A stretch of DNA of 34,272 nt from Bacteroidales bacterium (lineage in GTDB: Bacteria > Bacteroidota > Bacteroidia > Bacteroidales > UBA932): assembly GCA_017453565.1 (NCBI GenBank), contig JAFTEQ010000042.1, positions 1 to 34,272 on the forward strand. Reading direction: 5' to 3'. The position numbers and the translations under genes were made by a program. This document shows, piece after piece, positions 11,601 through 34,129 of this stretch (position 1 is its first letter; each line of letters begins with the position of its first letter). The notes under the pieces are model-generated. The model was not told the DNA's origin, made no database searches, and saw only the letters and a list, made by a program, of their open reading frames with translations.

Positions 11601-11895
11601 TGAGAACGGCATCCGCACGACGCGGGCACTCTGGCCTTCAGACCGTGGCAATCCTGTGCTCAGCGCCACTTTCCCGCAGGTTCTGGACCTGATAGCGGAA
11701 CATAAAGTAGAGATGGTGATCAACATACCAAAAAACCGTACGGACAAGGAGTTGGATAATGGCTATAAGATTCGGCGAGCAGCCATCGACGCCAATATCC
11801 CGCTCTTTACCGACGCCCGTCTTGCCACGGCTTTCATCGGGGCTTTCTGCCATTGCGGCGAAGATTCTATCGAAGTGAAAGAGTGGTGGGGCTGA
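8686..11895 (+). CDS. carB: Carbamoyl-phosphate synthase large subunit
   Basis: CarB makes carbamoyl phosphate from bicarbonate, two ATP and ammonia delivered by CarA. At 1069 residues it has the normal length and internal duplication. The first synthetase half starts with LLLGSGALKIGQAGEFDYSG and the second with VVLGSGAYRIGSSVEFD; each has an ATP-grasp domain (KEIEYEVVRD in the first, REIEFDAVAD in the second). The C-terminal allosteric MGS-like domain covers roughly the last 150 residues (ERGYELYTTEGTWRYL, INIPKNRTDKELDNGYKIRR). It is the last gene of the run and is followed by about 550 nt without a gene but rich in inverted repeats. Large open frames on the opposite strand here come from codon bias. 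Confidence 0.98.
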   Translation: MKQKAINKVLLLGSGALKIGQAGEFDYSGAQALKALREEGIETVLVNPNIATVQTSEGVADHVYFLPVTPEFVTRVIEQERPQGILLSFGGQTALNCGVALARSGVLERYGVQVLGTPVSAIEDTEDRERFVQRLSEIEVRTIASRPASSPQEALDAAAELGYPLIVRAAYALGGLGSDFVNDDASLRACLEKAFSFSDQVLVEKSLQGWKEIEYEVVRDCHDNCIAVCNMENFDPLGVHTGESIVVAPSQTLSNHDYHFLRATALKIVRHLGIVGECNVQYAFDPDSMEYRVIEVNARLSRSSALASKATGYPLAYVAAKLSLGYGLFEIQNSVTRSTPAFFEPALDYVVVKIPRWDLGKFHGVSRRIGSSMKSVGEVMAIGRCFEEALQKGLRMIGQGAVGFVCNKPYKVDDLDDALSHPTDTRIFAIAAAFESGYDAARIHALTRIDRWFLDRLADIERNYRALEACPGLDAVDSALLRECKRTGFSDLQFARVFGIGEAQVRAWRLERGVRPVVKQIDTLAAEFPAQTNYLYLTYGGTQSDLPAESGSVVVLGSGAYRIGSSVEFDSCSVACLRELRRQGRTAVMVNFNPETVSTDYDECDRLYFDELSLERVLDIIDLEQPSGVVVSVGGQIPNNLALPLEQAGVPILGTSAQDIDRAEDRHRFSSVVDALGVAQPRWAELSGREDLDRFIAEVGFPVLVRPSYVLSGAAMNVCYDREELEKYLALAADVSPEHPVVVSEFLSRCREIEFDAVADGGRILCSAVSEHVEYAGVHSGDATLVFPPQKLYAGTLRAVRADAEKIAAALHISGPFNIQFLAREGQVRVIECNLRASRSFPFVSKVMRRDLIGLATRVMLGQHPEPCETDAFALPYVAVKASQFSFARLQEADPRLGVDMASTGEAACLGHSFEEALLGALLSVGQRIPARSILISSGDPLQKADLLPACRLLAERGYELYTTEGTWRYLYENGIRTTRALWPSDRGNPVLSATFPQVLDLIAEHKVEMVINIPKNRTDKELDNGYKIRRAAIDANIPLFTDARLATAFIGAFCHCGEDSIEVKEWWG

Positions 11896-11906
11896 GGCTT
11901 TGCGTC

Positions 11907-12026
11907 GGCCTCTGTGCCCTGCAGTTCCCCGGGGGAGTTCGCTTCGCTCACCCCACCGTCTTTGACGGTCCCCCCGCTTCCGTGCCGCGGGTGGCACGTC
12001 CCCCGGGGAACTCAGGCACAGAGGCC
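11907..12026. repeat. Long branched hairpin (26 paired bases enclosing two hairpins)
   Basis: Bases 11907-11918 pair perfectly with 12015-12026 (12 bp, ggcctctgtgcc), and 11923-11936 pair perfectly with 11999-12012 (14 bp), separated by a small asymmetric internal loop. Inside are two further stem-loops: accgtc-ttt-gacggt at 11955-11969, and cgtgcc/ggcacg at 11981-11998. The result is a branched fold of about 120 nt, far longer than a terminator needs and without a T-tract. It starts 11 nt after the carB stop. It resembles intergenic REP-like elements more than a known riboswitch; I do not recognise the family. Confidence 0.75.
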
Positions 12027-12068
12027 CGCCTCCCAATTCCGTTTCTTGCGTCCCTGTTGCCGCCCGGT

Positions 12069-12156
12069 CTTCTGCCCGTGCGGACTCCATTCTCGCAGCT
12101 TCGTCCCCGCTGCGCAGGAACTCGCTGCTGCGGGTGATGTCCGCCCTTGGCAGAAG
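12069..12156. repeat. Dispersed structured repeat, copy 1
   Basis: A core of about 60 bases beginning cggactccattctcgca and ending in a ctgctgcgggtgatg block recurs at about 33979-34038 with a few substitutions and one 1-nt indel. In this copy the core is closed by gcggac/gtccgc (12080-12085 with 12139-12144) and by an outer stem cttctgcc/ggcagaag (12069-12076 with 12149-12156). The outer stem sequence differs from that of copy 2, but both pair. Confidence 0.75.
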
Positions 12157-12171
12157 GTCCGGGCGCCTAGA

Positions 12172-12248
12172 TTGCCGCTTCTCCGCGGAGCAGGATTCGT
12201 TGCTGCGGGTGAGGTCGCCTCAGGCGAAAGGCTCTCCGTCGCCGGCAA
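12172..12248. repeat. Degenerate neighbouring repeat unit
   Basis: Directly after copy 1, the tract gcaggattcgttgctgcggg (from about 12190) resembles the gcaggaactcgctgctgcgg part of the repeat core. It is enclosed by the short inverted pair ttgccg (12172-12177) and cggcaa (12243-12248), and contains the palindrome ctccgcggag. It looks like a decayed or variant unit of the same structured repeat. Confidence 0.45.
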
Positions 12249-12260
12249 AGCATCGAGATT

Positions 12261-12380
12261 CCGTGGAGGCTAAATCCTTATGATTCAATGAATAACCCCA
12301 CTATCGGACCCCCTCAAAAGGGGTGCCCTATAGTGCTTCATTATCTTGATGTTCAGTGCTTTAGCCTCCACGGGTTTTTT
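12261..12380 (+). terminator. Terminator-like nested inverted repeat with T-tract, downstream of carB
   Basis: A perfect 14-bp inverted repeat (ccgtggaggctaaa at 12261-12274, complement at 12360-12373) is followed by six T residues at 12375-12380. The long loop contains its own palindrome: cactat/atagtg at 12299-12304 and 12330-12335, with acccc/ggggt inside. The T-tract is on the + side, so it would end transcription from the gyrB-carB run before it meets the oppositely oriented GNAT gene. The wide loop is unusual for a simple intrinsic terminator. Confidence 0.55.
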
Positions 12381-19147: not shown

Positions 19148-20254
19148 ATGAAAAAGAGTCTATTCCTGCTTTTTGCTCTGAGTCTTGTTTTTGCGCTGAG
19201 CCCAGTCCGTGCCCTGTCGGCCCCGCCCAGGGAACTGCATTATACGGACGCCGCGGCTTTTCCGGTGCACGGCCAGGTACTGCCCGAGACTTCGGGCCGC
19301 TACACCCGTCTTCCCGAGTCGATGCACGGAGCGGTTCCGGAAAAGCTTTGGAACCTGGGCCTGAACAGCGCGGGTCTCTACTTTCGTTTCCGCAGCAATT
19401 CGCGCACCATTGCCGTGCGTTGGGAGAATCCGTCATCCAGCCAATACCCCAAACTTACGGCCGGTGCGACGCGCGGCCTCGACCTCTACGGCCGCATCGA
19501 CGGCAGCTGGTGGCATTTCGGGGTGGCCCTGCCCAAGAAGGGATCGTGCGTGAGCGAACACGTGTTCGCCAAATCGCTCGACGGTCAGATGCGGGAATAC
19601 ATCCTCTATCTGCCTCTGTACGGTTCCGTCAACAAGATTGAAATCGGCGTGGAAGAGGGGGCCGTGCTGGAAAACTCCGACGACCCGCATCCCGATCGGC
19701 GCAAACCCATTGTGATCTACGGGACCAGCATCCTGCAGGGCGCCTGCGCTTCGCGTCCGGGGGCGACGGCCACCAACATCCTCTCGCGTCGGCTCGACCG
19801 GGAAGTCATCAACCTCGGCTTTGCCGGCAGCGCCCTGCTGGAGCCCGAAATGGCCCGGTGGATGGCCGCGTGCCCCCATCCGTCCGTGTTCGTGCTCGAC
19901 AACCTGCCCAACGGCACCCCAAAACTGATTGAAGAGCAGGAGGAGAACTTCTTCCGGATCCTGCGCAAGGCGCACCCCAAGGTGCCTGTTGTGTTCGTGG
20001 AAGTGCCCTACTATCCCGGCGTGCGTTTCGATCCGGGCCGGAAAAAGACTTGTGAAAGCAAGAACCAGGCTTTGAAGAAGATGTTTGACGGCCTGGTGGC
20101 CAAAGGCGAGACACGCATCTATTACGTCGCGTCCGACACGATGATCGGCGACGACGGCGAGGCCACCTACGACGGCATACACTTCACCGACGTGGGCATG
20201 GTGCGTTACTGCGACCTCCTGTATCCCGTACTGAAGGAAATAATTGAAAAATAA
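19148..20254 (+). CDS. Secreted SGNH/GDSL esterase with GxDLY N-terminal domain, copy 1
   Basis: A signal peptide (about 1-25, MKKSLFLLFALSLVFALSPV) exports this 368-residue protein. An N-terminal beta-domain contains the GxDLY motif (GLDLY, 110-114), followed by an SGNH hydrolase domain with nucleophile S194 in IYGTSILQG, a block with LDNLPNG, and D342/H345 in DGIHFTD. Families of this type remove ester groups, often acetyl, from glycans or lipids; no substrate is proven. It is a close tandem paralogue of the next gene (SILQG, NILSRRLDREV, ENFFRILR, HFTD.GMVRY all shared). Copy 1 reads LGFAGSALL where copy 2 reads LGFSGNALL, so the block II region has diverged. The gene lies 23 nt after the dipeptidase. 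Confidence 0.88.
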   Translation: MKKSLFLLFALSLVFALSPVRALSAPPRELHYTDAAAFPVHGQVLPETSGRYTRLPESMHGAVPEKLWNLGLNSAGLYFRFRSNSRTIAVRWENPSSSQYPKLTAGATRGLDLYGRIDGSWWHFGVALPKKGSCVSEHVFAKSLDGQMREYILYLPLYGSVNKIEIGVEEGAVLENSDDPHPDRRKPIVIYGTSILQGACASRPGATATNILSRRLDREVINLGFAGSALLEPEMARWMAACPHPSVFVLDNLPNGTPKLIEEQEENFFRILRKAHPKVPVVFVEVPYYPGVRFDPGRKKTCESKNQALKKMFDGLVAKGETRIYYVASDTMIGDDGEATYDGIHFTDVGMVRYCDLLYPVLKEIIEK

Positions 20255-20265
20255 ACGATTGAGAT

Positions 20266-24500
<4,235 letters not shown>

Positions 24501-33709: not shown

Positions 33710-33741
33710 CCCGCAGCAGGGACGCCGGATGCGAGAATGGA
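33710..33741 (-). repeat. Dispersed structured repeat, inverted and internally deleted copy
   Basis: Read on the + strand, cccgcagcag followed by ggacgccggatgcgagaatgga matches the reverse complement of the repeat core with the middle missing. The 14 bases at 33728-33741 are the exact reverse complement of 33984-33997 in copy 2. Confidence 0.5.
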
Positions 33742-33847
33742 AAGAGCCCCGCTGGGAGGACCGGGCCGCCGAGTATGAATTGACTGATAAATAGTTATGC
33801 TCCATGCGGAGCCGTATCGTCCTATAATTGGTTTACATTTTAGTGCT

Positions 33848-33928: not shown

Positions 33929-33966
33929 ATACACTCTGGGAGAGATAATGATGTGCCGGCCTGGGC

Positions 33967-34056
33967 CTTCCACCGTGGCGGACTCCATTCTCGCATCTTC
34001 GTCCCGGTCAAGGCAGGAACTCGCTGCTGCGGGTGATGCCCGCCGTTCGGTGGAAG
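33967..34056. repeat. Dispersed structured repeat, copy 2
   Basis: The core (about 33979-34038) matches that of copy 1 near 12.1 kb at most positions. It is closed by ggcgg/ccgcc (33977-33981 with 34040-34044) and an outer 9-bp stem cttccaccg/cggtggaag (33967-33975 with 34048-34056), which differs in sequence from the outer stem of copy 1. Confidence 0.75.
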
Positions 34057-34129
34057 CCGCAGGCCGGTATCAACCCTATGTGTTACCTAATTTATATTAT
34101 GTTAACTTATGTGTATAGAAACAATCCCC

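Follow-up and report, generated by a model that had tools for sequence, protein, structure and literature searches.

A dispersed palindromic element with a conserved tip and variable arms, found in both orientations at shared sites in one genus of Bacteroidales

Introduction

Two copies of an intergenic repeat are present in a contig of a Bacteroidales bacterium (the window, i.e. the whole stretch of DNA analysed, 34,272 nucleotides), with flanking stems that differ in sequence between the copies and are paired in both. In the preliminary description of this locus, such compensatory change was taken to argue for selection on structure, as in a structured RNA or a REP-like mobile hairpin family. 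This raises the question of what kind of element is involved and what keeps arms of changing sequence complementary. The reading considered probable here is that of a short non-autonomous mobile palindrome with a conserved tip on long inverted arms, spread by a putative enzyme and inverting in place, with pairing of the arms at the DNA level.

Two copies in the window

Both copies (12069-12156 and 33967-34056) were found in the sequence as described, including the arms cttctgcc (12069-12076) and ggcagaag (12149-12156) of copy 1 and the inner closing pairs that differ between copies 1 and 2. These positions are right but the extent is short, since the predicted stems span 12061-12165 in copy 1 and, in copy 2, 33956 to at least 34067, where the folded stretch ended. 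The following features were located:

12061..12165, + strand: copy 1, full element, subfamily A (sequence, DNA search, folding)
12061..12076, + strand: copy 1, 5' arm of the outer stem, pairing with 12149-12165 (folding)
12149..12165, + strand: copy 1, 3' arm of the outer stem (folding)
12086..12137, + strand: copy 1, conserved tip TCCATTCTCGC...GCTGCGGGTGA (tip pattern)
12180..12216, + strand: 3' remnant of a second copy, matched weakly with E 0.008 (DNA search)
33719..33768, - strand: truncated copy, 5' half only (DNA search)
33956..34067, + strand: copy 2, full element, subfamily A, close to the contig end (DNA search, folding)
33984..34036, + strand: copy 2, conserved tip (tip pattern)

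Folding z-scores were -4.47 for copy 1 and -3.75 for copy 2, with 0 of 200 shuffles as stable for either. Out of six sequences folded, five gave 0/200 and the copy on contig C77 gave 3/200.

Judging by eye, the neighbours of copy 1 are presumably a carB-like ORF (ending at 11895) on one side and GNAT-like/valS-like ORFs on the other. Just upstream of the copy, another multi-hairpin repeat, CCTCTGTGCC...GGCACAGAGGCC with inner stem CCCCGGGGGAG...CCCCCGGGG, occupies 11904-12027, and parts of it also adjoin element copies on contigs C11, C20 and C77 of the same genome. Downstream, at 12263-12371, lies an inverted repeat GTGGAGGCTAA...TTAGCCTCCAC; similar GTGGAGGYTAA sites come after several further copies of this genome (L002, L007 and L009). 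Elsewhere in the window, the adjacent ORFs 19148-20254 and 20266-21354 contain DNA stretches that are 74-80% identical and 1106 bases apart, likely a tandem gene duplication to judge from this identity.

Copies in the source genome and distribution

The genome of the window (G000) measures 1.95 Mb in 80 contigs and is 77% complete. With the 106 bases of copy 1 as query, copy 2 was matched with an E value of 4e-19; at E<=1e-3 the genome yielded 20 places, copy 1 itself and truncated pieces counted, which fall into two subfamilies. A covariance model built from 14 copies gave at least 16 matches in G000, at least 15 of them full and a further one interrupted by the end of its contig. The preliminary description had made its case depend on further copies in the genome, and at least 15 full ones are there. 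Its label 'intergenic' is right for the window and extends to G000, where 0 of the 15 full copies lie in ORFs reading through the element, with a long open frame on one side of L004 and L014. A contig end is no more than about 1 kb away from seven of the 16 copies matched by the model (C20, C21, C52, C61, C63, C77 and the window end), as if the assembly broke near these repeats. Among 300 genomes of the genus, the closest DNA identity to G000 was 69% at carB, which is too distant for a test of orthologous sites.

At E<=0.01 the covariance model matched 41 of the 300 genus genomes, G000 included, the weakest matches being unsure, and G000 only among 393 genomes drawn from the order; both surveys ran strict filters and the order draw contained few congeners. 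Some of the weak matches are probably due to chance, L095 being unlike the element. The plain tip pattern occurred in 33 of 400 genus genomes, G000 among them, and reached 30 copies in one (G228: 14 + 16); the reversed tip pattern, taken as control, had 0 matches in the same 400. An earlier pattern had given 11 matches in the collection, of which eight outside Bacteroidales and L047 lacked the second half of the tip by eye and were rejected; L037 and L046 remain. The Bacteroidales MAG JAAYJQ also carries the element and belongs among the congeners, G041 and G061 sharing match positions. The element is a family of palindromes found here in one genus only, which may be Cryptobacteroides, and dispersed in some species. 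No report of it, nor of in-frame palindromes in Bacteroidales, was found in the open-access PMC literature.

Tip, arms and covariation

The final set comprised 155 copies, of which congeners contributed 142 and G000 the other 13. The element is about 90-115 bp long. In its shared part, the tip, TCCATYCTCGC and GCTGCGGSTGA are separated by a variable inner loop, which has 3 bases in many congeners and is longer in G000. Outside this tip stand two arms of some 25-30 bases each, which differ from site to site. Hairpins of like architecture with another tip, CATTTACCCGGATAGGGCGCGAAGCG, were also observed (L132, L197, L317 and L303), in some cases at sites of this family or close to them.

Since MAFFT/RNAalifold misaligned the outer stems of the first 14 copies, covariation was counted on 61 congener copies with a 25-nt tip, deduplicated at 88% identity, in which the arms align with few gaps. 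Left out were copies without an intact tip, those whose tip is not 25 nt long (52 of 155) and near-duplicates of more than 88% identity. Over 22 pairs in 61 copies, 81.8% of 1342 cells held a standard pair against a shuffled mean of 64.7, and 219 two-sided cells were observed against 74 in the shuffles. Four of five covariation measures were reached by 0 of 500 shuffles; the fifth, which counts the pairs showing a two-sided change, was 19 against 16.3 and was reached by 13 of 500. When the partners were slid by 1-3 columns, pairing amounted to 25-43%; relatedness among the copies is allowed for by this slide test and not by the shuffle test. The covariation test that the preliminary description had proposed is thus positive, the arms covarying far above shuffled and slid controls in these 61 congener copies.

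Five of the 61 rows form fewer than 11 of the 22 pairs. An arm is lost in L121 and L137, while L111 (one copy), L141 and L142 are bulged at other places. Copies with unpaired flanks had been named as evidence against a structural family. In G000 such flanks were seen only in truncated pieces, but among the congeners L121 and L137 combine an intact tip with the loss of one arm.

Copies within genes

A copy was counted as lying in a gene when an ORF read through the element and stayed open for 150 nt or more to either side of it. This applied to 108 of the 142 congener copies (62 minus, 46 plus), and in the first collection to 72 of 118 copies. Several reading frames and both strands are used, with no single-frame conserved peptide. 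Pfam families were matched by all 10 host ORFs tested, which had been picked because they looked recognisable: ABC_tran (ABC-F type), GH95, PriA, TruB, ABC exporter, Mur ligase, response regulator with LytTR, DnaG, AcrB and RrnaAD. The element stands between domains in some hosts (receiver/LytTR and TruB_N/TruB_C) and inside the domain match in others (GH95 and Mur ligase).

Comparison of loci, read by eye, showed sites with and without the element. The 17 distinct loci read at the ABC-exporter site divide into five with the element, 11 that are short (29-56 nt between the anchors, one being the scar L232) and one with another repeat. The LytTR site is filled in three of 11 loci, short in five and occupied by other inserts in three, and at the TruB site 11 of 13 loci contain the element, two of them decayed, and two are short. 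At each of seven sites the anchor distances differ by multiples of three only. The priA site of L254-L258 is occupied by another REP-like repeat, TGTCATTCTGAGCGGAGCGAAGAATCT (with 3 mismatches at most), the spacing likewise being kept in multiples of three. Because scars (L232 and L313) and decayed tips (L302, L228 and L264) occur, old copies are not protected. One 9-base direct repeat was seen as a candidate target-site duplication when the copy L244 was compared with L243; as this copy is degenerate, the duplication is not claimed. None of the full and empty sites compared formed a clean pair to the base, and neither target-site duplication nor precise excision was established.

These sites bear on the proposal that the tip inserts into pre-existing palindromes, the arms then belonging to the target. 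Such an origin would account for arms that vary by site, and L066 does resemble a terminator-type stem. It is nevertheless very improbable, given that one common type of arm, GCCGGACAGCCG..., is met again at unrelated sites and that the short ABC and LytTR sites hold no comparable palindrome by eye, except for the scar L232.

Inversion at shared sites

Orientation was compared for 153 of the 155 copies, all with intact tips, two copies with short flanks having been dropped. Both flanks are shared by 158 pairs, 82 in the same orientation and 76 inverted, pairs within a group not being independent. At flank identities of at least 95%, five of 10 pairs are in the same orientation and five are inverted. 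Of 25 groups of orthologous sites, 15 contain both orientations. Clean inversions were found in L175/L330, L183/L305 and L091/L122, where nearly the same sequence is turned round, arms included, and which are therefore not fresh insertions. The arms differ in L174/L222 and L224/L225, and from their sequences these may represent replacement by another copy.

Orientation that is near random even between near-identical genomes, together with whole-element inversion that conserves the asymmetry, could point to a regulated invertible element, flipped as a genetic switch by a site-specific recombinase. This is quite unlikely, as the arms differ between sites and template switching needs neither a recombinase nor a common crossover site. 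Template switching between inverted repeats homogenises arms and inverts spacers in yeast coding genes, according to the available text of PMC8604942, and yields compensatory changes in hairpins in that of PMC8794818. The inner arms have a fixed asymmetry that is kept through inversion, and the breakpoints must therefore be in the outer arms; inner ones would also be possible under plain template switching.

Changes in the arms were followed in intact copies with a 25-nt tip, the orthologous pairs not being independent. Between copies in the same orientation with flanks at least 90% identical, 29 one-sided changes and 1 two-sided change were counted in 308 cells (0.8 two-sided expected). Since one-sided changes dominate among these close orthologues, pairing is not restored at once. 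At 80-90% flank identity the two-sided changes rise to 22 against 7.5 expected, and inverted pairs show 16 against 3.0 (at least 90%) and 67 against 28.6 (80-90%). These counts by flank band suggest that mismatches arise singly and that pairing returns later, more often with inversion. Two-sided changes are more frequent in inverted pairs, but some of these pairs (L174/L222 and L224/L225) look like replacements, a point against the favoured reading.

Probable pairing at the DNA level

The covariation is real, but does not by itself prove the selection on structure that had been argued from the compensatory changes, because changes between near orthologues in the same orientation are almost all one-sided, the elements invert, and template switching can homogenise arms. 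The direction of the mismatches gives a further indication. In the sense of the host mRNA (52 of the 61 rows, those with a host ORF), 41 G.T and 42 A.C cells were counted in the arms. On the core strand of all 61 rows there were 37 G.T against 59 A.C (p 0.03), a slight excess of A.C that points away from RNA of that strand. As G.U has no advantage over A.C, the folding of an RNA is unlikely to be what keeps the arms paired. With both strands used in genes as well, we infer that the paired stems are a DNA-level feature and that RNA structure is not the cause.

A structured RNA, either a cis element or a small RNA whose fold is kept by selection, would fit the strong covariation of the arms, the stable predicted folds and the intergenic location of the G000 copies. 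Against it stand, besides the neutrality of G.U, the presence of both orientations within genes and the decay of tips at orthologous sites. Moreover, Rfam gave no match at gathering score in the window, and none that is credible under relaxed thresholds at the element (copy 1, L009, L037 and L046). The RNA part of the original proposal is therefore dropped as very unlikely.

Search for a mobilising enzyme

Y1_Tnp matches were obtained in 106 of the 300 genus genomes at E<=1e-6, many of them near that limit, and such genes are what would be expected if the conserved-tip hairpin, present in many copies, were a REP element that a RAYT (Y1 transposase) mobilises and that spreads as single-stranded hairpin DNA. 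However, a full element within 1 kb was found at only one of 20 Y1_Tnp loci read (L282, at G205:C17), and this copy lies inside the neighbouring RrnaAD (rsmA-like) ORF; the candidate link was rejected. By eye, most of eight pairs of Y1_Tnp flanks show palindromes of their own, different from the element and AT-rich. G000, with at least 16 matches to the element, has no Y1_Tnp at E<=1e-6, in a genome that is 77% complete. Mobilisation by a RAYT is consequently regarded as unlikely. The many copies, the patchy occurrence in one genus and the empty sites support, in kind, the notion of a REP-like mobile hairpin family; its RAYT partner is not supported, none being linked among the 20 loci. By eye, the RAYT genes at L284, L288 and L289 are flanked on either side by AT-rich palindromes that match each other, and these are likely a separate cognate REP system.

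For the mobile palindrome favoured here, a putative trans-acting enzyme recognising the tip or the hairpin would spread the element. After insertion, it would be turned round by an exchange between its outer arms or by a polymerase switching template from one to the other, and inversion together with copy turnover would keep the arms complementary while their sequence drifts. By analogy with the published cases, template switching and copy turnover appear the likeliest cause of the continued pairing.

Comparison with known repeats

Rickettsia palindromic elements (RPE) are palindromes of about 150 bp which lie in frame within unrelated genes or outside genes and are translated through, as the available text of PMC10969869 states. 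The present element shares with them the class of dispersed palindromes of about 100-150 bp in many copies and, in 108 of 142 congener copies, insertion in frame in unrelated genes, G000 itself having 0 of 15. To our knowledge, RPEs are restricted to their lineage, and we know of no mobiliser for them. Unlike an RPE, the element occurs in a different phylum, its arms vary between sites, it is read in several frames and both orientations instead of as one conserved peptide, and it inverts in place at 15 of 25 shared sites. By this comparison it seems to work much like an RPE and is not filed as a member; site-specific arms and frequent in-place inversion are what appears distinctive.

With REP/RAYT systems, including GTAG- and CGTC-tagged REPs, the element has in common that it is a high-copy hairpin repeat, but it is longer than the 20-40 bp of REPs, has a conserved tip in place of a tetranucleotide tag and is not linked to a RAYT. 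Like the MITEs ERIC, Correia and BOX it is non-autonomous, short and made of inverted repeats, whereas it has no fixed terminal inverted repeat. Correia elements are among the MITEs sometimes found within genes, and such locations of MITEs are mentioned in the available text of PMC10969869. Inversion of the spacer at orthologous sites also resembles small inversions by template switching at hairpins, but the inverted spacers in the available text of PMC8604942 and PMC8794818 are of a few bases, while here about 70-90 bp, nearly the whole element, are turned round at many loci. Small inversions in plastids are hairpin-associated and of like kind.

Stems that differ and yet pair are routinely read as a sign of selection on RNA structure, and over some 150 copies this family would provide a counter-example, which rests on in-place inversion, pairing at the DNA level and the neutrality of G.U. 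It is unlikely that these hairpins invert themselves genome-wide in conserved genes (priA, truB, dnaG, ABC transporters and response regulators), each flip swapping in-frame peptide inserts of about 28 residues; were this true, proteins would vary reversibly at a large number of loci simultaneously. Palindromes inserted in frame had been reported in Rickettsia and are now seen in an unrelated lineage, where near-identical genomes allow the flips of the element to be followed.
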